IMG/VR virus record: IMGVR_UViG_3300046804_002546
Span: 1 to 25,054 of that record
Direction: 5' to 3' (one strand)
Origin: a virus
DNA length: 25,054 nucleotides
In this document: positions 1,627-22,537 of the stretch, piece by piece
How the letters are laid out: every line of letters begins with the position of its first letter
Position numbering within the stretch: position 1 is the first letter of the stretch
Position numbers and translations under genes: made by a program
The notes under the pieces: model-generated
Databases searched by the model: none
What the model was told of the DNA's origin: nothing
Seen by the model: the letters and a program-made list of their open reading frames with translations, nothing else

Positions 1627-1648
1627 TATAAATATCATCAGAAGTCCA
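1627..1648 (-). repeat. junction motif copy 1 (TGGACTTC + ATATTTATA)
   Basis: On the minus strand TGGACTTC, five bases, then ATATTTATA spans the stop of the 804-residue gene and the leader of the 102-residue gene. A near copy lies at 23203-23225, also just before a gene with a good Shine-Dalgarno site. Function is unknown, and chance or amino-acid coding constraint is possible because GACTTC is coding here (Asp-Phe). Confidence 0.35.
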
Positions 1649-4052
1649 TTTTCACAACAAAATTTATAGGAAGTTCGGGTGTGATTTTGATTGGGCTTCC
1701 CAATTTTGCAACTGCAATCAAGTCGAGACCGTCATAGAGACCAATGGCAGTCGCCATTGGTGCCGCATAAGAACCTGTCTTGTCATTGCTTGACAACCGT
1801 TCATAATCCAAGAACTGACTCTTGATTTGAGGAACGGCGTGCTTTTGGCTCAGATAGTTCAAATGGTCAATGATGTCACTGAACAACTTTCGAGTGCAAG
1901 ATGGAGTAATGAATTGAGCGTAGTTCTCTTGAGTCAGGCGGTTGGCGAAATACTTCCACAGAATGCTCAAATCACGCTCATCAATCTTATTGTCTTGGTT
2001 GAAATCCAAAACATCCTGAACCCACATATCAGTCGTTTCCCAACGAACAATGCTTTCACTCGTCACGATTGACGTGTGTTCTACATCATAATTGGTATCT
2101 GTCTGATACCAGTTCAACAGGTTGATTTCATCATCGGCGGTGACAATTGACGAACTCCAATCAGTTGAAACCGTAAGACCCTGTTGAGTAGTGTTCTTGT
2201 ATTGCATGTAACGCAACAGGATGTCAACATCTTGGAAATCAAACCGACCGTTTTGATTGACATCCAACGAAGACGTGTTACGAGTTGTGGCCGATGGATT
2301 CGTGCTGACATTGAATTCGCCGGGAGAAACTGAACACACTACTTGCTTTTCAAAGATGGTATGTTGTCCTTTGAAATTGATGTCATACTCGTAAGTCGTG
2401 GAACTGAACGGGTTGTAGAACAACTGGTCAAATACCGAGCCAGAAGTCATCAAGATAATCTTTCCGTTTCGATAGAAAACGTTTCCAACGTGGAACTCAT
2501 TACGAAGATTTGCCAGATTGTAGATGTATGCTTTACCAGATACATCGGCGATTTCAACCCCGTTTGAGGCGGTCAGATCCAAATTGATTTCACGGTTGGA
2601 ATCACTCAAAGACATTGGTGCTCCCACCACAAACGACCGAACACCCGCACCGACACTGCTGCCGAAATGACGGTATGGGGTCAAGAACCGCTTCTTACGC
2701 TGATAGATGTTGGTGATGTCCCATTCTCCTGAAGAAGTATTCTTCTGCAAGAGCATAGCCTGACCGTTCAAGGAAATTTCCAAATCATCCTCACATTGAT
2801 GAAGTTGTTGCAATGTTCCACCAATGAAACAAGATGTCGTGCTACTGCGGTTGATTTTTGGAATTCCTGCAATAGCGTTGTTTGCAAACACATCAACCGA
2901 ATAACCAAGCTGGTTGTTCTTCATGATTGATGATGTGCCATATGTCTTCAATACGAGGTCGAATCGAGTGTTATCGTTCGGGCAACGTTCGTAAATTGAA
3001 ACGGACCCTTGTTGGTATCCAGACGAACCACTGTATTCATATACGGTTCTGTCCAAGTATTCGCCGATGATAACCGTGTCTTGGAACGTGGAAACAGAAT
3101 AACCATAGCCATTGGTCGTATTCAGGTTGACCGTATATGGGTCAAAGTTTCCGAAAGTCAAGGGGTATTCGGTTTCGGTATCAGGAGTGAAAACAAACGT
3201 CTGACGCCAACTACCACTGATGAACTGGAAGTAAAATGCTTTATTGGCTAAAAGGTTTCCACAACCAACAATCAAGCTACCGCTGAACGACCCACTTTGT
3301 TTGTTCAGCTTCAAACTGTGACCAAACTGAGAACCTGATATGACATTGGTTGCTTCGAGTTTTTGAAACAAATCCCAACTGTAATTGCTACCAGTTGAAG
3401 TGTTTCGGTAGAGGTAAACCATACCATTTGAACTACTAACATACGGCGAACCTACTGCAAGCCAGTTGGCATTGATTGATACTGAACGACCGAAAGATTC
3501 GCTCACATTGGAATCTGGATTTTCAATTCCATATGCAAACAAGCTTGAAGTTGGGGAGAGGGTAAACTCGCTTAAGCTCAAATCAAACACGTTGACAATT
3601 GAACCAGACGTATTAAATGCACTTGCTGATGTGTGAACACTTTGAATGTAGTATGGAGACCCTGCTACCAACAATTTGTTGTAAATGTCCACTGAAAGCC
3701 CTACGCCATCTTCCAAAGATGCAGTATAGAAGTTTTTGTCAATCTCGATGTCTTTGTTAAAAGAGCTTCCCGTGTTGTTGCTTTCAGTATGAAGTGGACT
3801 CTTCTGTGATGGAACAGACCCCGTTTGTCCCGCCAAAAGGATGTTCATTTCCACACCTGACAAATACAGAGTTCCAATCAAATCGTGTTGGTCAGAAGTT
3901 TTATTATAGCGGTAGTAATCCAACGAACCTGTGTAATGAAGGCTAGACGTGAGTGCATCGTAACGCACCAAGGCAGGATTGCCAACGACAACGTAATCAC
4001 CATAGGTGGCAACTGCATAACCGTTATTCTCATTTTTTATCGTCAGATACAT
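1638..4052 (-). CDS. large tail/baseplate-associated protein: FG-GAP-like propeller, dockerin-like pair, conserved C-terminal module
   Basis: 804 residues in three parts. Residues about 1-515 carry seven FG-GAP/integrin-type repeats, each with a G-x-S-V strand and then a V-G/A-G-x-P strand (FGRSVSINANWLAVGSPY, LGYSVDVFANNAIAGIPK, FGSSVGAGVRSFVVGAPM); seven fits a seven-bladed propeller. Residues about 595-715 hold two dockerin-like calcium loops, DVNQNGRFDFQD (597-608) and DFNQDNKIDERD (683-694), each followed by L-x-x-Y/L-x-K-Y helix residues. A module beginning VFYRNGKIIL and EFNVSTNPS and ending AIGLYDGLDLIAVAKL...KMDF surrounds the calcium pair and matches the end of the 375-residue protein at 10112-11239. 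There is no signal peptide. The start at 4052 has no Shine-Dalgarno site. Probably a virion surface protein that binds a host or glycan partner. Confidence 0.8.
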   Translation of the reverse strand: MYLTIKNENNGYAVATYGDYVVVGNPALVRYDALTSSLHYTGSLDYYRYNKTSDQHDLIGTLYLSGVEMNILLAGQTGSVPSQKSPLHTESNNTGSSFNKDIEIDKNFYTASLEDGVGLSVDIYNKLLVAGSPYYIQSVHTSASAFNTSGSIVNVFDLSLSEFTLSPTSSLFAYGIENPDSNVSESFGRSVSINANWLAVGSPYVSSSNGMVYLYRNTSTGSNYSWDLFQKLEATNVISGSQFGHSLKLNKQSGSFSGSLIVGCGNLLANKAFYFQFISGSWRQTFVFTPDTETEYPLTFGNFDPYTVNLNTTNGYGYSVSTFQDTVIIGEYLDRTVYEYSGSSGYQQGSVSIYERCPNDNTRFDLVLKTYGTSSIMKNNQLGYSVDVFANNAIAGIPKINRSSTTSCFIGGTLQQLHQCEDDLEISLNGQAMLLQKNTSSGEWDITNIYQRKKRFLTPYRHFGSSVGAGVRSFVVGAPMSLSDSNREINLDLTASNGVEIADVSGKAYIYNLANLRNEFHVGNVFYRNGKIILMTSGSVFDQLFYNPFSSTTYEYDINFKGQHTIFEKQVVCSVSPGEFNVSTNPSATTRNTSSLDVNQNGRFDFQDVDILLRYMQYKNTTQQGLTVSTDWSSSIVTADDEINLLNWYQTDTNYDVEHTSIVTSESIVRWETTDMWVQDVLDFNQDNKIDERDLSILWKYFANRLTQENYAQFITPSCTRKLFSDIIDHLNYLSQKHAVPQIKSQFLDYERLSSNDKTGSYAAPMATAIGLYDGLDLIAVAKLGSPIKITPELPINFVVKMDF
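1992..2264 (-). other. dockerin-like duplicated calcium-binding loops within the 804-residue protein
   Basis: Two copies of the dockerin type I loop pattern D-x-N-x-[DN]-[GN]-x-[FI]-D-x-x-D-[VL] lie at residues 597-608 and 683-694. Both keep Asp or Asn at positions 1, 3, 5, 9 and 12, and both are followed by a helix with L and Y at the usual places. The distance between loops is about 86 residues, longer than in ordinary dockerins, so there is an insertion between them (residues about 618-680). Confidence 0.7.
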
Positions 4053-4082: not shown

Positions 4083-7000
4083 TTAGTAGTAAACGTTCCA
4101 TCCGTTTCCTTGCAATGTGGCAATATCTGCCAATCCCGCTGGCGATGGCGCAGCGTTGGTGCCACTTCCATAGTTAGAAATATCAATGTAGTTGTCAATG
4201 GTTGGCGTAGCCCCTGCCGCCACAACATCCGCTAACAATTGGTCAACCGCAGCCTGAGTCAAAGCGTTGTTCGAGAAATCAATGATGTCAAGATTTGGGC
4301 ATCCCGAAATATCAACCGTTGTCACCGGATTTCCCCAGCAATACAAAATAGTCAATGTTGAAGATGTTGGCAAAGTCAAGGACGTAATACTCGTGTTGTG
4401 AACCTCTACATATTGCAGCAACGTATTGTTACTCAAATTCAACGAAGTCAAATTGGTGTTTTCTGCTTTGAGATACTTGAGCGCAGTATTGTTCGTCAGA
4501 TTGATTGATGTGACGTGCGTCAATCCGAAGTCAAGATATTCCAGACCGGTATTCGTTGTAACATCCAACGCCGACAAAGTTGGAGTTCCGGTGTAGTTGT
4601 TGTTAAGATTTAGATGAACCAATCCGGTGCTTCCACTTACGTTGATAGATGACAGGACGAAATTGTTTTCCATGTAGATTCCAGTTAAGGCTGGGCAGTT
4701 TATTGCCGAACACGTCATGAAACTTCCAATATACGCCGATGACGAGAAATTACCTGTAGGCGCAGCAATATCCGTATCAAATGGGTATGCAGCGTTTTGG
4801 TCAAAAATCAAATGATTGTTATAAACAATTGGCGCAGAAGCCGTGTATTCAATGCTTGCCGTATTGCTATATGATGAAGCTCCACCCGGACCCGACGCAA
4901 ACAGTCTATACCAATAAGTGTTGCTCTCTGCAACGTTTGTGTCAATGAATGCTGACGCAGTTGCACTGGCAGTATAATACTGTGCATACGTGATACCATC
5001 CAAAGAACGCTCAATTACGTTTGTAGTGTTTATGGCAGAGTTATTTGTCCATTCAAGATGAACTGAACCACTATAAACGATTAAACTGCTGGGAGCACTC
5101 GGAGGACCATAAACGGTCAACAAGGGTGAGAAAACTACACTTGAACTTCCATATGCATTTGCTGCAAAAACCGAATACTGATAGTAAGAGTATCCGTCAA
5201 CACCGGGATATGGGTAAGTAGTATCCGCAAAATTAGTCGAGTTTGCAGAGATTGCAAACCCATCGGAAGAGCCAGTAGTACCGCCTCCCCATTGACGAAC
5301 AATGCTATACGATGTTTCGTTCACTGCATTGTCCGTCCAAGACATGCTTACCGTATTGCTACCTGATTGTGCCACAACAAAATTGCTTGGAGCCGCTGGC
5401 GGAAAGGCCAGAACACTTACGGTTACGCTGGCTGTGTTAGAATAACTAGAAGTTCCAAATTTGTTTCCGGCATAAACACGATACCAATACGAACTTCCGC
5501 TCGTCACATTTGTATCTATTGATTGCGTCGTGTTATGACTTGCAGTATATTGAAGTGAATAATTCACACCGTCAGTTGACCGTTCAATTCCAAACCTACT
5601 TTCGTTAAGACTGTTATCTTGCCATGACAACACGGACGAACTTGCAGAAATTGTCAAGTTGCTTGGTGCTGCTGGCGGAACTCCTGTAGGAGTGTAAATT
5701 GTTGTTCCAGTTGGAACTGTAATAGCAGTTGCCGTCAACAGATTGGTTTCAAAGTCTCCATGTGCTGTATAAACAAGTTTGTCTGTGGTATTGTAGCACA
5801 CGCTATAAATGTATTGTGAACTGCTTGCTGGATGAACTGGTGTGGTTCGAGTTGCAATGAAGTTCGACATTGTAAAGTTGTTGTTTATAACCATCAATCC
5901 AGAACTATCATTTCCAGTGTTAATCGCAGCGATAATAGTGTTGTTACAGTCGCAATACGTAGCATCTTCCAAAATAAAGTTTGTGTTTTGGACAGGAATT
6001 GAATAATCAACTACGTCCGTTACAGGGTTATAAAACTCCAAAGTTGAACTGCTTGGACCCGTGCAAACAATCCGTTGAATTTGTGGAATATACTTGATTA
6101 CAGCATCAGCTACGACGGTCGTATTGCTTGCCGCATAAGTGTTTGCATCCACCACAATCATTGTGAAAGTATAAGGGTTGAAATTTTGCTGTGAGAAATA
6201 GTATTTCTGGTTAACAGATGAATACGTTCCCCAAAACATGTTCGAGCCTGATAAATTAGCAGTGACATCAACAACTTGAATTTCAGTCATCGTGGCAATA
6301 TCGAAAACAACCACTTTCTTAGGAGCAGCATTTCCTGTGTAAAACACGATGCGGTCTTTGTCGGAATCGTAGAACATTCGACCATTCCAGCTTACATTTG
6401 TCAACGATAGACGACTGATGAAACTACCAGTATTGTCATATGTGTCTAAGAAATTTCCATCAATAAAGTTTGCACCCCACACATATGCCTTATCTTGGAC
6501 AGGGCTATAAACTACTCCGTAACAGGTATCCAAATTGTAGTTTTGAAGGATTACTTCGTTAGTAGCATCATAGAACATTACATTTGTTCCGTCATCGCCA
6601 CATGCAATTACGTTCGATGATGGAATATGGACCGAATCAACGGGGCTATAGCCTTGCCAGAGTGCTTTTTGTTTTGAACCGGGAGACACATAAACCAAAA
6701 ATTGTCCAAAGTCATTGTAAACCGAAGAAACTTCAACTTGATATGTTCCCGACACTAAGTTTTGAACCCCAATTAGTCCGGTAGTTGATGTATCACCCGT
6801 CAACCTCAATCCATTTCCTGTTTGAGTTTCCATCTGTGTGGACGAAGTGTCCGCCAATGTGACAGACACATCAAAATCCGCCGAGCGTGCCCAAATAGAG
6901 AGTGGTTCTCCCGAAGCAGGGATGTTTATTGGAATCGTAAGACCATACGTGTTCTGATATGTTGCTATGTCATCTATGCTAATGCTTGCGGAATATATGA

Positions 7001-7685
7001 TAGCCGAGAACGAAGCACTTGGACAATCAGATGGGTTACTTCCGCTTATACCACAAACCAATGCAGAACCAGTGAAGATGAAATTTCCGAAATCTCGGAC
7101 TTCCTGAATCTTTGAAAACAGGTTTTCTTTAGCAACGAGGTTTCCGTCCCCGTCATCATTGATGATGATATTGTCGTCAAAATTCTGGTCATATAGAACT
7201 ACAGTATTTTCCGTGATTCGTTCGCCAAAAATAAGACGTGGAATCGTAAACATCAAAAATTTGTTTGCTAGATAACGGTTGTTCTTCGCCAGCGGAAAAT
7301 CAATGTTGTCTATTCCAAAAATTTGAAGTGGGTTGTTGTAGCGATTGTAAAACGCCCGATAAGTTTGGTCATGAACCAAACGCTTGAAGTTTCCAGTTTT
7401 TGCGTTGATGGCTTCTCTATCGGGAAAGAACTTACCACTTCCACTGATACCTTCTTCGGAGATTGCCAAGTCGGTGCTTTGTTGTTCCAACGCAATGTTA
7501 CATTCACGATTGAGACTACCAGTGTCACCTACCGTGTAGTCCATGTATTCAAGTGCTACCGGCTCTTCCGAGCCAGTTTTCTCGGTTAAGAGCAGTTCTT
7601 GTGGGTCGGTATTCGACAACGCCCATCCCTTCACCGTTATAAACGGCGACATCAGGGTATCATGTTTACCGAGTTGTTTTATCAT
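4083..7685 (-). CDS. giant modular adhesin-like tail protein (attachment domain, propeller-like region, 3x Fn3, LRR)
   Basis: 1200 residues. Residues 1 to about 210 are clearly homologous to the N-terminus of the 360-residue protein at 9018-10100 (shared VALEY-x-DY, IALEQQS, GSGKF-x-PDREA, FKRLVH, FGERI-x-ENTV). Residues about 340-665 form repeated Val/Tyr/Asn-rich beta units resembling a YncE-like propeller. Three fibronectin type III domains follow at about 669-759, 761-859 and 861-952, each opening PP-[AS]-APS and containing a Y-W-Y-R or similar strand. Residues about 986-1153 are leucine-rich repeats of about 20-22 residues (LTSLNLSNNTLL, VTSINLTNNTAL). The end, APSPAGLADIATLQGNGW, is typical of phage and bacterial LRR proteins. 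No signal peptide or transmembrane segment, so it is probably assembled on the virion as a receptor-binding fibre. The ATG at 7685 lies 9 bases after the preceding stop. Confidence 0.85.
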   Translation of the reverse strand: MIKQLGKHDTLMSPFITVKGWALSNTDPQELLLTEKTGSEEPVALEYMDYTVGDTGSLNRECNIALEQQSTDLAISEEGISGSGKFFPDREAINAKTGNFKRLVHDQTYRAFYNRYNNPLQIFGIDNIDFPLAKNNRYLANKFLMFTIPRLIFGERITENTVVLYDQNFDDNIIINDDGDGNLVAKENLFSKIQEVRDFGNFIFTGSALVCGISGSNPSDCPSASFSAIIYSASISIDDIATYQNTYGLTIPINIPASGEPLSIWARSADFDVSVTLADTSSTQMETQTGNGLRLTGDTSTTGLIGVQNLVSGTYQVEVSSVYNDFGQFLVYVSPGSKQKALWQGYSPVDSVHIPSSNVIACGDDGTNVMFYDATNEVILQNYNLDTCYGVVYSPVQDKAYVWGANFIDGNFLDTYDNTGSFISRLSLTNVSWNGRMFYDSDKDRIVFYTGNAAPKKVVVFDIATMTEIQVVDVTANLSGSNMFWGTYSSVNQKYYFSQQNFNPYTFTMIVVDANTYAASNTTVVADAVIKYIPQIQRIVCTGPSSSTLEFYNPVTDVVDYSIPVQNTNFILEDATYCDCNNTIIAAINTGNDSSGLMVINNNFTMSNFIATRTTPVHPASSSQYIYSVCYNTTDKLVYTAHGDFETNLLTATAITVPTGTTIYTPTGVPPAAPSNLTISASSSVLSWQDNSLNESRFGIERSTDGVNYSLQYTASHNTTQSIDTNVTSGSSYWYRVYAGNKFGTSSYSNTASVTVSVLAFPPAAPSNFVVAQSGSNTVSMSWTDNAVNETSYSIVRQWGGGTTGSSDGFAISANSTNFADTTYPYPGVDGYSYYQYSVFAANAYGSSSVVFSPLLTVYGPPSAPSSLIVYSGSVHLEWTNNSAINTTNVIERSLDGITYAQYYTASATASAFIDTNVAESNTYWYRLFASGPGGASSYSNTASIEYTASAPIVYNNHLIFDQNAAYPFDTDIAAPTGNFSSSAYIGSFMTCSAINCPALTGIYMENNFVLSSINVSGSTGLVHLNLNNNYTGTPTLSALDVTTNTGLEYLDFGLTHVTSINLTNNTALKYLKAENTNLTSLNLSNNTLLQYVEVHNTSITSLTLPTSSTLTILYCWGNPVTTVDISGCPNLDIIDFSNNALTQAAVDQLLADVVAAGATPTIDNYIDISNYGSGTNAAPSPAGLADIATLQGNGWNVYY

Positions 7686-9017: not shown

Positions 9018-10100
9018 TTAACTGAGAACACCGCTCAAAAATCCTATGTTAAGTGATGCCGTTTGTATTGCTGCCGACATCGAGAGTGAACTTGTCACTA
9101 CTTCGTTGAACAACGAACCTGTATAGAACGTTGTTGCCAAAGACTGCGTTTCAAAAGAACCTGACCGCAGTAAAACTTCGTCATACAGAGAACCAGTATA
9201 GAAACTTGTTCCCATGCTTCCGGTATCTGCTGAACCACTGGTAGCAATTACATTCGTGCCTAAGCTACCAGTGTAGAACCCAATATCCAGTGATGCGGTA
9301 TTTGTTCCACTACCCGTAATGATTTCCAAAGTCAAACTACCCGTGTAAAATCCGACAGAAACGGCATCTACTTCTATCGTTGGGACATCCAATTGCTCGC
9401 CACTAACAAATCCGCCGATTCGCAACGTACTACCGCTATCGGCCACATACACCCGAACATACGTGTCATAACATACATAACTCGATGTTCCAGACATAAT
9501 TATATTCCCAAAGGATCTTACTTCTTGAACTTTTGAGAATAAATTGCTGCGGGCGATTAGGTTTTGATTGCCATCATCTGTGACTTCTACGTTGTCATCT
9601 ACAGCAGTATCGTTCAGACGAACGGTGTTTTCTATAATACGCTCACCGAAAACAGCTTGTGGAACATTGAAAAGACGAGCGATGTTGGACAAATCACGAA
9701 AGGTTTGTCCGAGAGGAAAATCAATGAATTCGACCCCGAAAATCTTGGTGGGGTCGTTGTATTTGTTATAAAAAGCCGCTTTAGTCTGAGCGTGGACGAG
9801 CCGTTTGAACGTTCCGTCGTTGTTGGTAGCTTCTCGGTCGGGGTAGAACTTTCCTGAGCCAGTGATACCTTCTTGATAGTTAATGAAGTCACTACTCTGT
9901 TGTTCCAACGCAATGCTACAAGCCGTGTTTACGAACGGATTGTCTGTGGAGTAGTCGGTGTATTCAAGCGCAACAGTGTCCTCTGAACCAGTCGGTTCAA
10001 GGATTACCAAATCATCAGGATTTCTATTGTATAGATGCCAAGACTTAGCCGCAACGAACGGCGTCGTTAAAAAGTTTTGATGATTGATGTGCTTTATCAT
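9018..10100 (-). CDS. structural protein with shared attachment domain and FYTGSL repeats
   Basis: 360 residues. Residues 1 to about 205 match the N-terminal domain of the 1200-residue protein at 4083-7685 almost throughout (FKRLVHAQTKAAFYNKYNDP versus FKRLVHDQTYRAFYNRYNNP; NLFSKVQEVRSFGN versus NLFSKIQEVRDFGN). After residue 240 it switches to a short-period repeat with FYTGSL about every 24-27 residues, a pattern expected for a beta-helical or fibrous stalk. Probably the common domain docks to the baseplate or neck, and this paralogue ends in a simple stalk instead of an adhesin. The start ATG at 10100 lies 11 bases after the preceding stop with no clear Shine-Dalgarno site. No enzyme motif is seen. 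Confidence 0.75.
   Translation of the reverse strand: MIKHINHQNFLTTPFVAAKSWHLYNRNPDDLVILEPTGSEDTVALEYTDYSTDNPFVNTACSIALEQQSSDFINYQEGITGSGKFYPDREATNNDGTFKRLVHAQTKAAFYNKYNDPTKIFGVEFIDFPLGQTFRDLSNIARLFNVPQAVFGERIIENTVRLNDTAVDDNVEVTDDGNQNLIARSNLFSKVQEVRSFGNIIMSGTSSYVCYDTYVRVYVADSGSTLRIGGFVSGEQLDVPTIEVDAVSVGFYTGSLTLEIITGSGTNTASLDIGFYTGSLGTNVIATSGSADTGSMGTSFYTGSLYDEVLLRSGSFETQSLATTFYTGSLFNEVVTSSLSMSAAIQTASLNIGFLSGVLS
9027..9360 (-). repeat. FYTGSL protein repeats, 4 full and 1 degenerate copy
   Basis: FYTGSL recurs at about residues 250, 274, 297 and 324 of the 360-residue protein, and a degenerate FLSGVL near 352. Between copies there is a Ser/Thr-rich segment such as SGSFETQSLA. The DNA of the copies differs at many third positions, so this is an old protein-level repeat, not a recent DNA duplication. 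Confidence 0.8.
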
Positions 10101-10111
10101 TCATTCAAATC

Positions 10112-11239
10112 TTAGAAGTCGAGGCGTACTTTGATGAGCAATTCGCTGTCAAACGATTTGACTGCGGGGCGGCTGAGTTTGGCAACGGCAACCAACTCGT
10201 TGTTGTCATTATACAGACCGACCGTGGTGATGTAAGTTTTTGGGTCGTTGATGAAATCCGTGTTACGGATTGTTCCCTTAGCATGAACATTGTCCGTTCC
10301 GTCATAGACGTAGGTCGGATTGTTGCTGTAGTTGAAGTCACGATTCTTGACACGAATGAAATAGTGACGTGAAGGCACGTATTCACTACGACGCACGTTC
10401 ATGGTGCGGTTAGCCAACTTCATAGACTCAAACAACGTTTTGTGATTGTAGGTGTAAGAAGCGGTAGATTCAAGACCGGGGTTGTATGGCCAAGTTCCTG
10501 CGGCGGAAGGTCCATTACTACCAACACCGACAGTTGACGTAATACCCAGCTTTTGTGCCAAGAGAGCAGCGTTCAATACGATGATTCCGTTTGATGGATA
10601 GAACAATCCAAGACCTCCATACGTTGGAGTAGAAGGAAGACTGTCCAAAGTTCCGGCAATCATCTGATATACGTTTTGAGTCGTGCTCAAATAGGGAGAG
10701 TTGTCAATGAGCGTCACGCTACCACTTGAACCTGAGAATGAAAGTTCAATGAGACCTTCATCAATCTTGTCCTTTTGTTTGAAAGCTGAGAACGAAATCA
10801 CCCAAATATCATCGGCAGAAACCGTGGTGCTACCACTGTTCATTGTGAACATGCCATCCAAATCGGAAGTTCCCAATAGCATGTTCTTGTATTGCGTGTA
10901 AACCGCCTTCGTAGGAGAAGCTTGAATACTTGCTGACTCCAAGGAGAATGAACCAGACCCCAAATTACCATTGATGTTACCATAAGTAATGGAAAGATAT
11001 GGGTCGTTGTTGTTGTAGTAATCTCCATCAGGGAAAACGTTCAAGTAATACATCGTTCGGCGAACGTCATAGACTGACGTGCCGTATGATGGTGTTCCCA
11101 CTGAACCAGTGAGCGACCAGAAGTCATCAACGAAGTTGCTTTGACTATGAGCGGTCAACCCATCGGGCCAATATCCGCTGGCGACACGGGTTGTGCGTCC
11201 TGCTACGATGTCGGTGTCTTCAAACTGGTTAAATATCAT
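10112..11239 (-). CDS. phage structural protein with conserved C-terminal tail/baseplate module
   Basis: 375 residues. The C-terminal part (NRDFNYSNNPTYV, then FINDPKTYITTVGLYNDNNE and AVAKLSRP, ending KVRLDF) is a module I recall from structural proteins of uncultured T4-like phages, and it recurs at the end of the 804-residue protein in this window. The N-terminal two thirds are beta-rich with many SGS and Tyr residues and have no enzyme motif. By position after the wedge genes it could fill a role like T4 gp8 or another wedge/fibre connector, but I see no direct similarity to gp8. The ATG at 11239 is 7 bases past the upstream stop, with AAGG as a Shine-Dalgarno site embedded in the junction. 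Confidence 0.7.
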   Translation of the reverse strand: MIFNQFEDTDIVAGRTTRVASGYWPDGLTAHSQSNFVDDFWSLTGSVGTPSYGTSVYDVRRTMYYLNVFPDGDYYNNNDPYLSITYGNINGNLGSGSFSLESASIQASPTKAVYTQYKNMLLGTSDLDGMFTMNSGSTTVSADDIWVISFSAFKQKDKIDEGLIELSFSGSSGSVTLIDNSPYLSTTQNVYQMIAGTLDSLPSTPTYGGLGLFYPSNGIIVLNAALLAQKLGITSTVGVGSNGPSAAGTWPYNPGLESTASYTYNHKTLFESMKLANRTMNVRRSEYVPSRHYFIRVKNRDFNYSNNPTYVYDGTDNVHAKGTIRNTDFINDPKTYITTVGLYNDNNELVAVAKLSRPAVKSFDSELLIKVRLDF

Positions 11240-12627: not shown

Positions 12628-15600
12628 TTATGTCGGACAGCTAACAATCACACCGCCACGAGAATCACCGCTGTTACCATAAATACTCAACAATGCAGTC
12701 ACAGGATATGAAAGACTCTTGTTAAAGATATAGCTTCCCGTCGTGCTTTGGAATCCAGTGTCAATGACGTTTGCTCCGTTCCAGTTCAATACAAACTTAG
12801 TTTGTGGTTCTGTCATTGCAAAACTCAATTGCACAACACCTGTTCCAGTTCCAAGAACGACTGATTGCGTTGCGGGTAACGTTGTGGACGACACGTTATA
12901 CGATTGTGACAACGCCACACACGTAATTGTTGCCGCTGGGCATTGCACATGGAAGCTTCCTGCCGATGCTGGCGCACGGTCAGTGCTGACAGTGATAGAT
13001 GCCGACGTTGGGTATGCTGATGTCTTATTGAAGTATGCACTTCCAGTTCCAGTTGTATTGAGGCCCGTATCAATGACGTTGGAACCATTCCAGTTGATGA
13101 CGAACCTATCAGGATAGCTGCGAGTGCTCCACACGAGCTTGACTACACCAACATCCGTTCCAAGTGTAACGACATCCACCAAAGATGCGGTATTGCTGAC
13201 AGTATATGAACTCGACAATGCAACACATGCAACTGAACCAAATGTTGTGATGTAATTTGTTTGCACAGACACATCCGTTCCACTACTTCCAGTTGCGCTC
13301 AAAGTGACAGTGTAAGAACCCGTATTGGTATATGTGTGTGATGGATTTGCCACGGAACTTGAAGTTCCATCACCAAATTGCCAGTTGAAGGTGTCCGCAC
13401 CAGCACTTGTGTTGGTGAAGTTTACCAACAGCGGAGAAAGTCCGCTAACAGGTGATGCATAGAAACTTGCTACAACCGGTTCAGGCGGAATGACAACTGG
13501 TGTGGTCAACAACTCCGATGAACCATAATGACCAAGCTGGTATTTATCGGGAACGTCCGAAATGTATGTGCCTTGAGGCAAGAAATTGATGGGATAGTTC
13601 AAGCTTGGCAAATTGATGTATGCCACGTTGAGGTCCAGCGTTAAATTGTTTGGTAAACTTGCCGTGTCAAATTGGCTTGCATACGTTGGGTCAACGTTGA
13701 AATCCGCATATTGAACTGATTCGGTCAACCGAGTCAATTTCGTGTTTGGGTCACGGAAGTAGTGGGATGCTGTAATATCAGCATAGAAAACGGAGCCAGT
13801 GTTAGCTTCACTGTAAACTGGCTTGGCGTGGTACTTTGGACGCTCAAGTACCGTCGGTTCAACGATGACACCAACCAGAACGTTTGAGCGTGCTGGTGTG
13901 AGGTTCTTAATCGCTTCAAAAATTGAGCGGTTGAAGTAGAACTTGTAAAGCGTAATCAACTCGTTGAAGAGTGTGCGACTTCCACTATTCTCGTTTTTTG
14001 CCGAGGCATAGGTCTGGCGGAAGTTGCGGAGGGTGTCATAACTACCCGAAAACTGGTTGTTTGGATTGCCGATGGCATCCATGAAATCGAAGTTACCGAA
14101 GAAGCGAACGATGTCTCGGTTCTTGAAATCTTGCGGGTCAACAAAGAATCCGACTTGGTTGGAATCGGGGGCTGTGCTGTTCCGGGGCACGTAAGTTGAG
14201 CGGGTTTTGTCATCAAATCGAGTCGCAACAGATTGCGAAACATGACGAATCTTCTCGTTACGGAACTTGTTAGGCCCATACTTGGTTGTGGCCAACGTGC
14301 TTGGGTAATCCAATACTTTGAATTGGAACGGGTATGCCGATTGTGAAACATATTCACATGATGCAGAATCATATACCAACTCCTGTGCGCCATGCCAAGC
14401 ATTACGGCTTGACATCAAATCCACCGATGGGGCGTATGCCAAAGCAAATTCTTGCTCTTGCTTTGTTGAAGAACTAAGAGCATAGAATGGATTTGCATTT
14501 TGCCAGCTACCTGACCATACATTTGCACTCGCCGAAGTTTGACGAAGGTCAAATGGGTAGTCGGTGTGCATACGGAACAGCAAAGACTTTTGCGGGTCTC
14601 GTGAGCCGCTAAAACTGTATGAGTTGATGTGATTGACGTAATCTTCAAAATTGCTATCTGTGATTGGGTCATACCACATTTGCCATTTGTCAAATGTGCC
14701 GGTGTATCCTTGGCCGTTATGAGACGTAAACCAACCACCAATCATGATGTTAGACCCCGTATTACTTACATCGAAGAATTGATTGGTCGAGGCTTCATAG
14801 CACACTGCACTTGCTGTCAAATATACGGCCCGCTGTCCCGATTCGTTTTTTTGAACATACAAGTCATAACGACATGGGATAGCATCTGTATTGGCATTTA
14901 CCTCATACTCACTCGACGGAGCATTGCGGCGAAGCATGAAACTGTAAACGCTTCCATCGAATAACGGAAAGTGTGGAGTGTAAATCTTGAACTGCGGGGC
15001 ATTTTTGTAACCAATCTGGAAGAACAGTTTTCCAGATTTTGCTACAGGTTCACGGACAAATCCCACTGACCACTCACCAGAACCAGAGATAGATGACGAT
15101 GCTGCTGAACCACTGACACGTCCAAACAGAATTTGTTCTTGACCATATGAATATGGTTCAGAGCTATCAATTGACAGTTTTCCGAGGAAGGTCTTCGCAT
15201 TAGATGGCGCAGGGACAGAAAAATAATCATATGCGGACGATGTATTCCATTGATACATATAAGCCCGCTCGTAGATGGTGTATGCAGCAGAATCGTCGGC
15301 ATAGTTGACTCCACCAAACTCACGAACACTCAACAACACGCTTGGAATACCATAGCACGCCAACAACAAACGCACGGATTCTTCCGTTCCTTTAGCCTTG
15401 AAAATCTGTGGTAGGTTGGAGAAAATACGGTTGCGGATGGTCTGCAAGCGTTCTTCTGCTGACATTGAAGCCAAACCTTCAATTTGGTCTGATGTCAGAT
15501 AGTTTTGAAGCAAGCTGGCTTGTTCGAGTGAATCGTCAAGATTCCAACCAAACGTCTCCAACATATAATCAACAATGCGCCGAGTGAATTCTTCAGTAGC

Positions 15601-17496
15601 CGATTGACCCACGGTCTTCTCCGATGGAATGTTGGTGATGTAGGCATAGATGCCATCGAAGAAATGACCAACCATTGACAAGAACGTGATGTAATCATCG
15701 TTTTTCTCGTCAGACAAAATGTGGTCGGGGCAGTTGTTAATCAAGCTGTCACGGTTGTATTTGTCGTAGTAACTAGCCGAATTCAACGTCTCCGCAACGA
15801 AACTTGCACTGACAAATCCACTGCCAGAGTATGCAAAATTACCGCTACGATACAGATATGATTCGTAGCCATCGAATGACGATACAATTTCCGTCATCTG
15901 GTCTTGGATGACATTCTTCTCTTGGGTATAGAATGGATATGTGCTACCACTGGCTGAAACAAATGCGGTGTTCTTGTTCTCCAAAGTTACCAGAGAAGAA
16001 GTGAGGGCTGCAAGATTGATAGATTTGTTCTTGAAAATCTTTACTCGTAGTTCAGCAGATGAGAAGACCACGAAATTTGCAAAGTCACTGTAATCAACAT
16101 TCAACTCGCCCAAGTTTTTACTGACAACCAATTCACGGCTGTTTTCATCACTTTCCCTCAAATCTTCTGCGGTATATGCAATGTTAGTATTGGTCAAACT
16201 TACGTTTGGAATTGGAACTGAAAAGTTCGGCGCACCAATCTTATGCACCATCTTACTTGATGGAGTTCTGACAATTGCATTGACGACGTATGGAGCCAAC
16301 GAAATGTTCGATACCCAGCAGTGGCTTCGAGCCATGATGTCGTTTGGCAATTCAGATTGCAACTTAACCAGAAGCGTCAGAGGCTCGGATGGACTGGTTC
16401 GTTCGTCCATCACTCCCGTATTCAAAATTGGAAGGATTCGGTTATTGCCGAGATTCAACCCGTTCTTAAGATAGGAATAGTATTTCTCATTGTATGTGGA
16501 CGACAATACATTGCTGATGGGCTGGTAGTAATGCTTCGTGAAAAAGTCGTAAATGAATGCTTTGGCATCTACATACTGCTTTGAAGGATGCTCGCCTATT
16601 GGAGCGAATTTGCGCTCGATGGATGCGGACACAAACCCATTGAAATGGGTGTCAACCTCTTTGAAATCAACGACGTTTTCCGAGTTAGAAAGGAGATAGT
16701 TCGTAAAATAGGTTTGAATTCCTTGAATACGAATCAAACGGTCATTTGTGCTCGAAACTCCTGCATTGGAAACTTTTGGAACGGTCGTAAAAATCAAGAA
16801 GTCTTCATACAGATTCTTCAAGAATTTAAGCATCGCCCCGTCGGTGTTCAGGAAGAATACTTGTTTGATTGTGTTGATTTCAGACGTGTATTGGGAACTA
16901 ACTCTGGAATAAATTTGTTCGTATGGGCAGATTGCAACACTCTTCAAATAGAGTGGCGACACATCGCTCAACAAAACTTTCTTGCGGCAAAATGCATCAT
17001 AGTTAGCATTGGAACTGCTCAGAGGAACGAGTTTCAACTCCTTACGGGAAGGTGAAATTTCCTTGATGACCAACGGTTCGTTGATGTTACCCGCCATTTC
17101 ACGGGTGAAATTGTAAACAAAGAAGAAGCTGCCTTCGGTCATTCCAGTTGCCGTTTGCAACTCTTCGGCAGGATTGACCAAGACTTTCTCATTCTTGTAA
17201 AGCGTGAAATCGGTCAGCAACTCGGAGTAAGAATATGTTACGGGGTAATCGAGAGCGTTGAGATATGAGAGAGTAATCTCGTTGAAGCTCTTGGATTGAT
17301 TCAAGACATTCCATCCGATGAAGTTGTCTTCTCTGTCCCAAACCCCGAACTCAATCACGTCATTAGCCGAAAATCCAAACCACAAATCCGATACATATCC
17401 GTTGACAAAAAGAGTCGTCTCGGTTCTGTTGAGGTAAGAACCAGTGTTCAGACTGCCGGTGTTTGTCGCAACTAATGGATATGATGTGAATTCCAT
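12628..17496 (-). CDS. giant baseplate/tail protein with tail protein I-like, LamG-like and PKD regions and tandem C-terminal domains
   Basis: 1622 residues, the largest protein here. Residues about 635-720 (YMLETFGWNLDD; IRNRIFSNLPQIFKAKGTEE; LLLACYGIPSVL) resemble the tail protein I-like core found in large tail proteins. About 780-960 looks like a concanavalin A/LamG-type beta sandwich (SVGFVREP, LFFQIGYKN, FDKWQMWYDP). A PKD domain lies at about 1341-1417 with the hallmark FNWQFGDGTSSSVANPSHTY. It is followed by two homologous domains of about 100 residues (about 1422-1524 and 1526-1621), each with F-V-x-NWNG-x-N-VIDTG. Its place after gp6 and the coiled-coil gene suggests a counterpart of T4 gp7 (about 1030 residues), which is positional inference only. 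The gene starts 1 base after the preceding stop, suggesting translational coupling. The C-terminal domains could bind host surfaces. Confidence 0.75.
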   Translation of the reverse strand: MEFTSYPLVATNTGSLNTGSYLNRTETTLFVNGYVSDLWFGFSANDVIEFGVWDREDNFIGWNVLNQSKSFNEITLSYLNALDYPVTYSYSELLTDFTLYKNEKVLVNPAEELQTATGMTEGSFFFVYNFTREMAGNINEPLVIKEISPSRKELKLVPLSSSNANYDAFCRKKVLLSDVSPLYLKSVAICPYEQIYSRVSSQYTSEINTIKQVFFLNTDGAMLKFLKNLYEDFLIFTTVPKVSNAGVSSTNDRLIRIQGIQTYFTNYLLSNSENVVDFKEVDTHFNGFVSASIERKFAPIGEHPSKQYVDAKAFIYDFFTKHYYQPISNVLSSTYNEKYYSYLKNGLNLGNNRILPILNTGVMDERTSPSEPLTLLVKLQSELPNDIMARSHCWVSNISLAPYVVNAIVRTPSSKMVHKIGAPNFSVPIPNVSLTNTNIAYTAEDLRESDENSRELVVSKNLGELNVDYSDFANFVVFSSAELRVKIFKNKSINLAALTSSLVTLENKNTAFVSASGSTYPFYTQEKNVIQDQMTEIVSSFDGYESYLYRSGNFAYSGSGFVSASFVAETLNSASYYDKYNRDSLINNCPDHILSDEKNDDYITFLSMVGHFFDGIYAYITNIPSEKTVGQSATEEFTRRIVDYMLETFGWNLDDSLEQASLLQNYLTSDQIEGLASMSAEERLQTIRNRIFSNLPQIFKAKGTEESVRLLLACYGIPSVLLSVREFGGVNYADDSAAYTIYERAYMYQWNTSSAYDYFSVPAPSNAKTFLGKLSIDSSEPYSYGQEQILFGRVSGSAASSSISGSGEWSVGFVREPVAKSGKLFFQIGYKNAPQFKIYTPHFPLFDGSVYSFMLRRNAPSSEYEVNANTDAIPCRYDLYVQKNESGQRAVYLTASAVCYEASTNQFFDVSNTGSNIMIGGWFTSHNGQGYTGTFDKWQMWYDPITDSNFEDYVNHINSYSFSGSRDPQKSLLFRMHTDYPFDLRQTSASANVWSGSWQNANPFYALSSSTKQEQEFALAYAPSVDLMSSRNAWHGAQELVYDSASCEYVSQSAYPFQFKVLDYPSTLATTKYGPNKFRNEKIRHVSQSVATRFDDKTRSTYVPRNSTAPDSNQVGFFVDPQDFKNRDIVRFFGNFDFMDAIGNPNNQFSGSYDTLRNFRQTYASAKNENSGSRTLFNELITLYKFYFNRSIFEAIKNLTPARSNVLVGVIVEPTVLERPKYHAKPVYSEANTGSVFYADITASHYFRDPNTKLTRLTESVQYADFNVDPTYASQFDTASLPNNLTLDLNVAYINLPSLNYPINFLPQGTYISDVPDKYQLGHYGSSELLTTPVVIPPEPVVASFYASPVSGLSPLLVNFTNTSAGADTFNWQFGDGTSSSVANPSHTYTNTGSYTVTLSATGSSGTDVSVQTNYITTFGSVACVALSSSYTVSNTASLVDVVTLGTDVGVVKLVWSTRSYPDRFVINWNGSNVIDTGLNTTGTGSAYFNKTSAYPTSASITVSTDRAPASAGSFHVQCPAATITCVALSQSYNVSSTTLPATQSVVLGTGTGVVQLSFAMTEPQTKFVLNWNGANVIDTGFQSTTGSYIFNKSLSYPVTALLSIYGNSGDSRGGVIVSCPT
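12630..13233 (-). repeat. tandem pair of about 100-residue domains at the C-terminus of the 1622-residue protein
   Basis: Both copies share CVALS-x-SY-x-VS at the start, G-T-x-x-GVV-x-L, then RFVINWNGSNVIDTG in copy 1 versus KFVLNWNGANVIDTG in copy 2, a F-N-K strand, and a final V-x-CP. The DNA has diverged, but the protein match is unmistakable, so this is an old internal duplication. Confidence 0.85.
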
Positions 17497-20135: not shown

Positions 20136-22115
20136 TTACAATACTGACCCTTTGATGTCGCTGTCAGGGTATTTGACCTCAAAGATAGAAGGGTCAACCG
20201 ATGGATAAACAATGCCGTTCTTTGTTGCTGCGGCAATGTCATATTCCACCGATGAATAATCTCCATCCAAGGCGGTTTTGTTTTTGATTGACAGGCTGAT
20301 AACTGACTGGACACCATCAACCTTGGCAATTTCAAGCTGCAACTGACTCAAATTGATAGGTTGAGAGAAATTCCACTTGTCAACATTGAAGAAAGATTGC
20401 ACCGACTGGATGCAGTTCAAAAGAACATCTTTCTTGTTGAAGCCTTTGTAAACGGTAATCGTAAACTCAACTCCGATGTTGATGACATAACCATCAATAA
20501 TGTTCACGCCATCCGTAATCATGCGTGATTGCTTCAAATATGTAATCAGATTCGTAATCAAAGCGTCATTGGGTGGAATGAGTTTCTTGTCCGCATCATA
20601 CGACAAAAGATACACATTGATTGCGAATGGATTTGTCACGTCATATGCAATACGACGGAAGAAATTGTTATCACTGTTGCTGACAACAGTTGCGGCGTTG
20701 TCTTGATTCACCGTGCCGACCAAAATCTTGTTAATTCCAACCTCAAGGCTGGTATCGGCAATGACCTGTGCCTTGGCAATCGAACCAAACTTTGCTGGCA
20801 ACGAATATACTCGAACGAGGTAATCGTTTTGAGTTACTGTGCGGTTTTGTGCCGCAAAATTAGCCATTGCGTTTTGCTTGATTTCGTCATCAGTCTCGCT
20901 GTCCTTACCGCCCACACATGGAACGGGATTGCTTACTTGCAATGAGTTCTTGACAGTGTTCAAGAGTTCTACTTGCTCTGGCAACAGTCCTTCGGATGGA
21001 TTATCAAACTCGGCTGATACCACGTTACGAATCTCGTTGGTTTGACAATTGGATTGTAATCCTCCACCAACCAGATAGCGAATGGTCAAGGTAGTATTGA
21101 ACGGAGCAATACCATAGTTTTCATTCTTCAAGAAATTCGCAGGGTCAAGCGGAACATTGACATTGGAAATGCGGTTCAATCCCACACCAATCAGATTGGA
21201 GTCAAATGTCACGATTTCATCATCAACCCCGTTTGTTCCTGCACCGAACTGCAAAGAAGTAACGTTGTTTTCATCAACCAATGTGACAAAACGACGGGAG
21301 GTCTTGAGATACTTCAAGATGTAAGGAACGGAATCCTTGTATTGGTTCAACGAGCCTTCAAACTCGGCATCGTTTGGAGTTGAGATTGGAACAAGTTCCT
21401 GTGCCAGATAGTCAACTTCATACCACTTGTTGTTGTCAGAATCCGTGATGTCGAGGATGGCCAGAACGTTTGGCTCGTCCAAAGTAATCGTATAGTATGG
21501 TGTTGGTGAGCCAACCACAACTTCCTTGCTCAAGATTTGTCCTGAGTTGATGCTACCCGTTTTCTGCAAAAGGAAGAACTCAGGCGTTCCGTCTGTGTTG
21601 CGAGAGTAAACCGAGTCCAGCCGTGGGGACATAGATGAACTTACTTGGAAGTCCACCGCTTGATTCAAAATGTAATATGAACCCCCGTTGTTTGAAAACT
21701 GAGTGTTCTCCTTGACCAACAACATATAGTCGGTATCTGGATAATAGTTTCCAGCACCATCAGTGGCCGAAGGACAAAGTTGAAAGAGATTAACTGCACC
21801 AGTTGATGCACGGGATGGTTTGACTTTGTAACCAAGGTAACGTGCCAAATTGATAATGTTACGACGCTCGGTCGCACTGGTGAGAATACTTTCCTTGAAA
21901 GCGTAATCTGTGTAGTAACTCAGAACGTCACCGACGTAGGCAGCTTGTTCAATGAACATCATGCCGGGAGCAGATGGCGAGAAGTCACGATACGTATTGG
22001 GATAATACGTTTTGGCAAAGTTGATAAGCGAATCCTTCAACTGAGAGAAATCTCGGTTCAAGTAGCGAATCTCTTTGCTGTTTGGAGCAAATGACTTTTG
22101 GGTGTTGCTTGGCAT
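20136..22115 (-). CDS. 6: baseplate wedge protein gp6 (baseplate J-like)
   Basis: 659 residues, practically the length of T4 gp6 (660). The N-terminus carries the signature of the family: IRYLNRDFSQLKDSLINFAK, TYRDFSPSAPGMMFIE, AAYVGDVLSYYTD, ESILTSATERRNI and LARYLGYK. Later parts match the J-like core (EQVELLNTVKNSLQ, then AQNRTVTQNDYLVRVYSLP). In T4, gp6 dimers join wedges into the hexagonal inner ring of the baseplate and govern the change to sheath contraction. Here the gene lies directly after gp25, its structural partner in the wedge core, with a TAA TT ATG junction. No truncation or frameshift is visible. A firm assignment. Confidence 0.94.
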   Translation of the reverse strand: MPSNTQKSFAPNSKEIRYLNRDFSQLKDSLINFAKTYYPNTYRDFSPSAPGMMFIEQAAYVGDVLSYYTDYAFKESILTSATERRNIINLARYLGYKVKPSRASTGAVNLFQLCPSATDGAGNYYPDTDYMLLVKENTQFSNNGGSYYILNQAVDFQVSSSMSPRLDSVYSRNTDGTPEFFLLQKTGSINSGQILSKEVVVGSPTPYYTITLDEPNVLAILDITDSDNNKWYEVDYLAQELVPISTPNDAEFEGSLNQYKDSVPYILKYLKTSRRFVTLVDENNVTSLQFGAGTNGVDDEIVTFDSNLIGVGLNRISNVNVPLDPANFLKNENYGIAPFNTTLTIRYLVGGGLQSNCQTNEIRNVVSAEFDNPSEGLLPEQVELLNTVKNSLQVSNPVPCVGGKDSETDDEIKQNAMANFAAQNRTVTQNDYLVRVYSLPAKFGSIAKAQVIADTSLEVGINKILVGTVNQDNAATVVSNSDNNFFRRIAYDVTNPFAINVYLLSYDADKKLIPPNDALITNLITYLKQSRMITDGVNIIDGYVINIGVEFTITVYKGFNKKDVLLNCIQSVQSFFNVDKWNFSQPINLSQLQLEIAKVDGVQSVISLSIKNKTALDGDYSSVEYDIAAATKNGIVYPSVDPSIFEVKYPDSDIKGSVL

Positions 22116-22117
22116 AA

Positions 22118-22537
22118 TTACACTTTATTCGTGTTGAGGACAATTTCCACCACATCGGACTGGTTGATGGCGTCCACGGTAAACTTTACGACGATGTATA
22201 GTTTATAAATATCTCGAAGGTCGGTACTTTTGTCATCTTCAAAGTATTTAACGTCAACTGAATTCACCGACACGCCGGGAATCCACTGTGCAATGTCTTC
22301 TGTGATGATTTTGTTCACCTTTTCAGGGATAAAGTCGTCGTTTGGCTCGAAAACAAGTGTCCAAAGACGGCATCCAAACGTCGGATTCATGCGACGTTCG
22401 CCCGGAACGGTGCGAATCAGATTTATTATATTCATCCGATACGCCGTGAAACTATCCGTGGTTTGGTCAAAATAGCCACTATTCCCACCTTGAATCGGTA
22501 GGTTCAAACCAATCGGAATGTTCTTCAAAATGGCCAT
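22118..22537 (-). CDS. 25: baseplate wedge protein gp25 (GPW/gp25 family)
   Basis: 139 residues against 132 in T4. The family core is clear: FTAYRMNIINLIRTVPGERR followed by MNPTFGC and LWTLVFEP, then an amphipathic helix (EKVNKIITEDIAQWIPG) and alternating strands at the end. The GERR/EPR-type residues lie in the core bundle that gp25 forms with gp6 and gp53, the most conserved part of contractile injection machines. The ATG shares one base with the stop of the Ala/Pro-rich gene before it (TAATG), so translation is probably coupled. No anomalies seen. Confidence 0.95.
   Translation of the reverse strand: MAILKNIPIGLNLPIQGGNSGYFDQTTDSFTAYRMNIINLIRTVPGERRMNPTFGCRLWTLVFEPNDDFIPEKVNKIITEDIAQWIPGVSVNSVDVKYFEDDKSTDLRDIYKLYIVVKFTVDAINQSDVVEIVLNTNKV

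Follow-up and report, generated by a model that had tools for sequence, protein, structure and literature searches.

The last gene of a baseplate gene cluster from an uncultured phage encodes a protein in which a dockerin-like domain of about 150 amino acids interrupts a conserved tail module. In bacteria, dockerins serve as plugs of cellulose-degrading complexes. On sequence grounds the domain is an insertion: related phages have other tail proteins in which the module, here called module B, runs on uninterrupted. We consider it somewhat better than even (probability about 0.55) that the domain is a calcium-clamped structural or assembly element of a baseplate or tail-fibre protein that also has a propeller head and a C-terminal anchor. 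The whole stretch of DNA that was analyzed, referred to as the window, is a 25,054-base IMG/VR virus fragment with a G+C content of 0.44.

The gene lies at 1638-4052 on the minus strand, which carries the large genes of the window, and encodes 804 amino acids from an ATG start. It consists of a propeller followed by a C-terminal unit with the inserted dockerin-like domain. Read from the right, the gene order is gp25-like, gp6-like, large fibre-like proteins and finally this gene. The gp25-like baseplate wedge gene (22118-22537, minus strand) was matched by GPW_gp25 at 4.2e-12, and the gp6-like baseplate wedge gene (20136-22115, minus strand), which fixes the context, by phrog_219 at 5.6e-18. 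Because the gene stands last in a cluster that includes the gp6- and gp25-like baseplate genes, its product is probably a virion protein. Beyond it are a 102-aa ORF, a RuvC-like ORF and a T5orf172 ORF; Microcystis phage Mel-JY01 similarly has a GIY-YIG gene after its last tail protein. The best annotated relatives of the gp6-like protein are in Mel-JY01 (43.7%), the 484-kb uncultured phage LR756508 (39%) and Flavobacterium phages immuto (38%), and it also matches hundreds of uncultured contigs.

A 1622-aa baseplate-region protein of the window, at 12628-17496, has a PKD domain near residue 1360-1417. The fibre-like proteins at 4083-7685 and 9018-10100 have a common N-terminal module of 210 residues (54% identity) and different C-terminal parts, and the longer one (4083-7685) ends in leucine-rich repeats.

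Residues 1-505 (2538-4052, minus strand) form a seven-repeat FG-GAP beta-propeller of the integrin alpha type. Pfam FG-GAP_2 (PF14312) matched the ORF at 1.3e-14 with 54.5 bits. Six FG-GAP cores were located by pattern at residues 117, 187, 243, 316, 382 and 463, and a seventh, NGYAVATYGDYVVVGNP, was read by eye in the translation from residue 10. Structure prediction with 46 sequences gave a confident propeller, nearly all beta, for residues 1-512. When this model was searched with Foldseek, the best PDB matches were integrin alpha chains (best E 9.4e-14). The seven FG-GAP-type repeats that the preliminary description had proposed are thus borne out. An FG-GAP Pfam match was found in 45 of 46 family members, and the mean pair identity of the propeller is 0.38. 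The product of an 11-kb hypothetical gene of Sinorhizobium phage Phosso (PV764938.1, 57900-68978) also matches the propeller weakly, at 24.8% and E 3e-4.

The C-terminal unit contains two calcium-loop motifs. Loop 1, DVNQNGRFDFQD, spans residues 597-608 (2229-2264, minus strand), and loop 2, DFNQDNKIDERD, spans residues 683-694 (1971-2006, minus strand), so that the two are 86 residues apart. Both match the strict pattern D-x-[DN]-x-[DN]-x-x-hydrophobic-[DN]-x-x-D, and no other match occurs in the six frames of the whole window. In 100,000 shuffles of the protein the average was 0.002 loops, and at least two loops arose at a rate of 1e-5. As shown by the model, each loop leads into a helix, at residues 606-623 for F-hand 1 (2184-2237, minus strand) and at residues 692-702 for F-hand 2 (1947-1979, minus strand). 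The second helix carries the invariant residues W699, K700 and Y701. Dockerin_1 matched the ORF in two stretches at 4.2e-7 with 30.5 bits, above its cut-off of 22.9, as the curated profile demands of a type I dockerin. EF-hand_7 reached only 13.4 bits against a cut-off of 30. These results uphold the earlier view that the loops are of the dockerin type, not generic EF-hands, and that a helix comes after each of them. Among 46 family members, 34 had a Dockerin_1 match at E 0.01.

It is conceivable that two generic calcium loops arose by convergence in an unrelated helical domain, with no dockerin descent. The loops of the relatives are 72-92 residues apart, compared with about 32 for the repeats of Doc48S, and the intact domain gave no significant Foldseek match, as convergence would predict. 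The comparison with solved structures points the other way. Among PDB chains, a profile of the whole insert matched dockerins (best 1.5e-4), for the most part through loop 2. When the linker was cut out, both repeats aligned jointly with 4fl4 (6.2e-6), Doc48S (1.0e-5) and 1daq (1.1e-5), and the alignments with Doc48S and 1daq were gapless from end to end. In the list obtained with the linker-less profile, bacterial, mostly cellulosomal, chains ranked above all eukaryotic EF-hand proteins. Two dockerins were among the top 13 matches when the intact domain was searched with Foldseek against 350,542 chains (TMt 0.54 for Doc48S and 0.49 for the ScaB dockerin), a ranking that is suggestive at an E of about 4, which is not significant. 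Together with the two Pfam scores, these alignments make convergence improbable.

We conclude from the alignments that the inserted pair is dockerin-related, with an internal helical expansion. It has the two F-hand repeats and the ligands of a type I dockerin (D1, N/D3, N/D5 and D12, each kept in 46-49 of 49 sequences), and both predicted loops presumably hold calcium. We stop short of classing it as a true dockerin, because its repeats are 72-92 residues apart and not about 32 as in the compact module of about 60-70 aa; cohesin binding is putative. Dockerin_1 tends to pair loop 1 with its second repeat and loop 2 with its first. Circular permutation was considered and set aside: natural and swapped repeat orders both fit solved dockerins, which reflects repeat symmetry. 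Since the swapped order fits similarly, as symmetry leads one to expect, we draw no conclusion on repeat order.

The inserted domain covers residues 593-742 (1827-2276, minus strand). When DNA 1815-2294 was modelled in isolation, the insert was predicted as one compact helical domain with a pLDDT of 92.7 and a pTM of 0.88. The order in the model is loop 1 with its helix, further helices, a short helix, loop 2 with its helix and two more helices. The linker between the F-hands (residues 623-682; 2007-2186, minus strand) is 46-66 aa long with a pair identity of 0.33, and its roughly 55 residues between the F-hands were modelled as helices. The loop separation of about 86 residues, which had been called unusual, is therefore confirmed and explained by helices between the repeats within a single confidently predicted domain. 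Prediction of the protein with 46 sequences also gave confident helices for residues 588-745 and low confidence for the remaining C-terminus.

Module B flanks the insert on both sides. Its first half is residues 506-592 (2277-2537, minus strand; GNVFYRNGK ... PGEFNVSTNP) with a pair identity of 0.59, and its second half is residues 743-804 (1641-1826, minus strand; TGSY.AP..T.IGLY..L.AVAKLG.PIK). The motifs EFN..NP ... PYITTIGLY..LVAVAKL that mark the module are thus present in a protein of the baseplate cluster. We built a profile from the sequence on either side of the dockerin-like region, omitting that region. This flank-only profile matched proteins of LR756508 (306 aa, 8.5e-26), immuto (357 aa, 4.9e-24) and Mel-JY01 (593 aa, 5.2e-23) in a single continuous stretch. 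It matched other tail proteins more weakly, including one in the window itself (10112-11239, minus strand; E 9e-10), whose C-terminus aligns as module B without the insertion. Pairwise BLAST between that protein and the one described here gave a faint match, E 0.002. The distance between the module motifs was then compared in the 164 unique ORFs with both motifs. It was 0-59 residues in 108 and 140-199 residues in 56, with none between. The long-gap ORFs have the WKY helix motif or, in the seven that were printed, plainly the same dockerin-like domain. Because the gap is bimodal with no intermediates, the insertion looks like a single event at one site. That the domain sits inside a separate conserved tail module is the point that the preliminary description missed.

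The insert was found only alongside the propeller. All four parts occur together in 161 ORFs, counted with search patterns derived from the family itself, which could miss unrelated carriers. The exceptions are one contig end, two split genes and one rearranged gene. In the annotated phages the best match to the insert was at chance level (E 0.6). A weak scan of genome contigs with one narrow peptide pattern confirmed no insert, so no cellular donor with such spacing was found.

The C-terminal unit is separable. In two separate contigs, L178 and L200, it is an ORF of its own (295 aa): an in-frame TAA at 7408-7410, with an ATG four bases on, splits it from the propeller. The invariant columns of the family start at the boundary of this unit, G506. 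From its separability and this boundary, the unit may be read as an anchor. Because module B is poorly predicted, its role as an anchor is a guess. In L203 (2073-6939) the propeller gene is interrupted by a segment resembling the fibre gene at 4083-7685 of the window, with an fn3-like and a leucine-rich-repeat-like part. An intron was considered there and had no Rfam match. The interruption looks like fibre-gene recombination, or it may be an assembly chimera.

A direct search of viral contigs with the single protein gave no match, and annotated phages matched it only weakly, at the propeller or the C-terminal end. To reach relatives, we started from the gp6-like neighbour and went on by alignment and profile. 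By this bridge, 26 of 39 records matched the protein or part of it, and the profile search found 79 loci directly, on contigs of up to 369 kb. Since the contigs reach this length, some carriers are of jumbo-phage size. Module B without the insert was found in Flavobacterium phages, in Mel-JY01 and weakly in Rhodothermus phages. Its presence in the Flavobacterium and Rhodothermus phages hints at Bacteroidota-type hosts for the phage group.

The calcium ligands are almost invariant in 49 non-redundant sequences from IMG/VR relatives, down to about 30% identity. Ligands of loop 1 are kept in 47-48 of 49 and those of loop 2 in 46-49 of 49; positions 1 and 3 of loop 1 are kept in 47, and positions 1, 3 and 12 of loop 2 in all 49. 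In one clade of N-terminally extended proteins (L109, L110, L199 and L202; 1140-1513 aa), the front half of loop 1 is lost, while its helix and loop 2 are kept. The expectation that homologues keep the Asp/Asn ligands thus held at 46-49 of 49 per position and failed for the front of loop 1 in this clade, where at least one calcium site is dispensable because that loop is lost. The F-hands, which are constant in length, are as conserved as module B (identity 0.59-0.60 versus 0.59-0.62). Variation lies instead in the linker, the propeller and the last helices, with identities of 0.33-0.38. Conserved F-hands and module B beside a variable linker and propeller suggest a structural core and not a host-tracking surface. 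A surface that follows the host should vary, so the best-kept F-hands fit either the core of a structure or a contact face for another phage protein. The same conservation would also follow if the F-hands bound a conserved phage-encoded partner.

Such a partner is the core of a different explanation, in which the domain assembles the tail as a calcium-dependent docking plug. Its socket would be a beta-sandwich resembling a cohesin, carried by a fibre or baseplate protein next to it. The dockerin descent of both repeats and the strong conservation of the F-hands are consistent with it. Position 18, which contacts cohesin in type I dockerins, is R or K in loop 1 of 45 of 49 sequences and K in loop 2 of all 49. 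However, loop 1 has aromatic-Gln at positions 10-11, the usual recognition pair, and loop 2 varies there. Moreover, a Pfam cohesin scan, which distant cohesin-like folds would escape, found none in the window or in 21 IMG/VR carrier records, four of them contigs of more than 250 kb. The proposed search for a cohesin-like domain in the rest of the phage thus gave no Pfam match in the window or the carriers tested. We regard this tail-assembling plug as unlikely, and equally doubtful the wider idea that a captured and rebuilt dockerin still plugs, calcium-dependently, into a partner resembling a cohesin, either within the virion or at the host surface.

The sole cohesin found belongs to a Flavobacterium phage in which the module-B protein has no insertion. 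In this phage, immuto, a secreted-looking protein (MW353176.1, 12691-13422) has an annotated cohesin domain (PF00963, 2.5e-10) and a C-terminus that resembles a T9SS sorting domain; a C-type lectin gene lies three genes away. An otherwise unrelated 841-aa protein, immuto35A_191 (L218:963-3488), has a single dockerin-like loop, DINNDGKVDKTD.

The immuto cohesin indicates that cohesins occur in such a setting, and with the dockerin-like sequence it would be in keeping with binding to a cohesin-like protein on the host surface as an aid to adsorption. Across phages and samples that differ widely, however, the F-hands are kept better than the propeller, the opposite of host tracking. The domain is also nested in a conserved unit rather than placed at a tip, and no cohesin was identified. 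Binding at the host surface is thus very unlikely, and stiffening or assembly of the particle is a more likely role for the calcium-loop domain than plugging into a host cohesin.

In the structural reading, the protein would belong to the baseplate or tail fibres of T4-like, partly jumbo-sized, uncultured phages. The variable integrin-like propeller would probably be an outward head, and the conserved C-terminal unit (residues 506-804) probably an anchor in the particle. A single insertion would have placed a dockerin-related domain, made larger by helices between its F-hands, in a loop of this unit, where it was then kept. Two calcium ions may hold the two loop-helix units together as a rigid helical knob, which could stiffen the joint between head and anchor or pack on a neighbouring subunit of the same virion.

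By these results, the tail machinery of a widespread but uncultured phage group has taken up a cellular docking fold and conserved it. If docking persists, phage assembly or adsorption uses a cellulosome-type joint. If docking is gone, the domain is a clear example of how a binding module can become a structural insert stabilised by calcium. Given the family, its single insertion site and the insert-less relatives, both readings can be tested.

Our search of largely open-access papers met with no description of a dockerin within a tail or baseplate protein, and the domain had no significant match in the viral structure library. Dockerin-like sequences in phages are already known; what is new, as far as we checked, is a nested and expanded form that has become fixed in a family of tail proteins. 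Gene 40 of Vibrio phage VvAW1 was noted as dockerin-like without further analysis (PMC3558961), and BFVD A0A8S5M688 is a protein of a metagenomic myovirus named 'Dockerin type 1'. Both are isolated annotations, with no analysis of a tail role, and are likened here to the present domain at the level of annotation.

Compared with type I dockerins (PF00404; 2mte Doc48S, 1daq, 4fl4 and 2vn5), the domain has the same two loop-helix F-hands, calcium pattern, hydrophobic positions and [KR]-Y in the helix. It differs in the spacing of the repeats (72-92 residues instead of about 32), in the extra helices between and after them and in its nesting in a phage tail module, and no cohesin was found with it. 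The propeller has the seven FG-GAP cores of integrin alpha, its best structural match, but it is part of a phage protein, has neither the integrin beta partner nor thigh domains and is low in sequence identity. The insert-less module-B proteins (306 aa in LR756508, the 357-aa immuto35A_165, 593 aa in Mel-JY01 and the window protein at 10112-11239) have the same C-terminal module and lie in the same gene clusters. Where the insertion would sit, however, their gap is about 20-40 residues, and their N-terminal parts are different, such as Laminin_G_3 in Mel-JY01.
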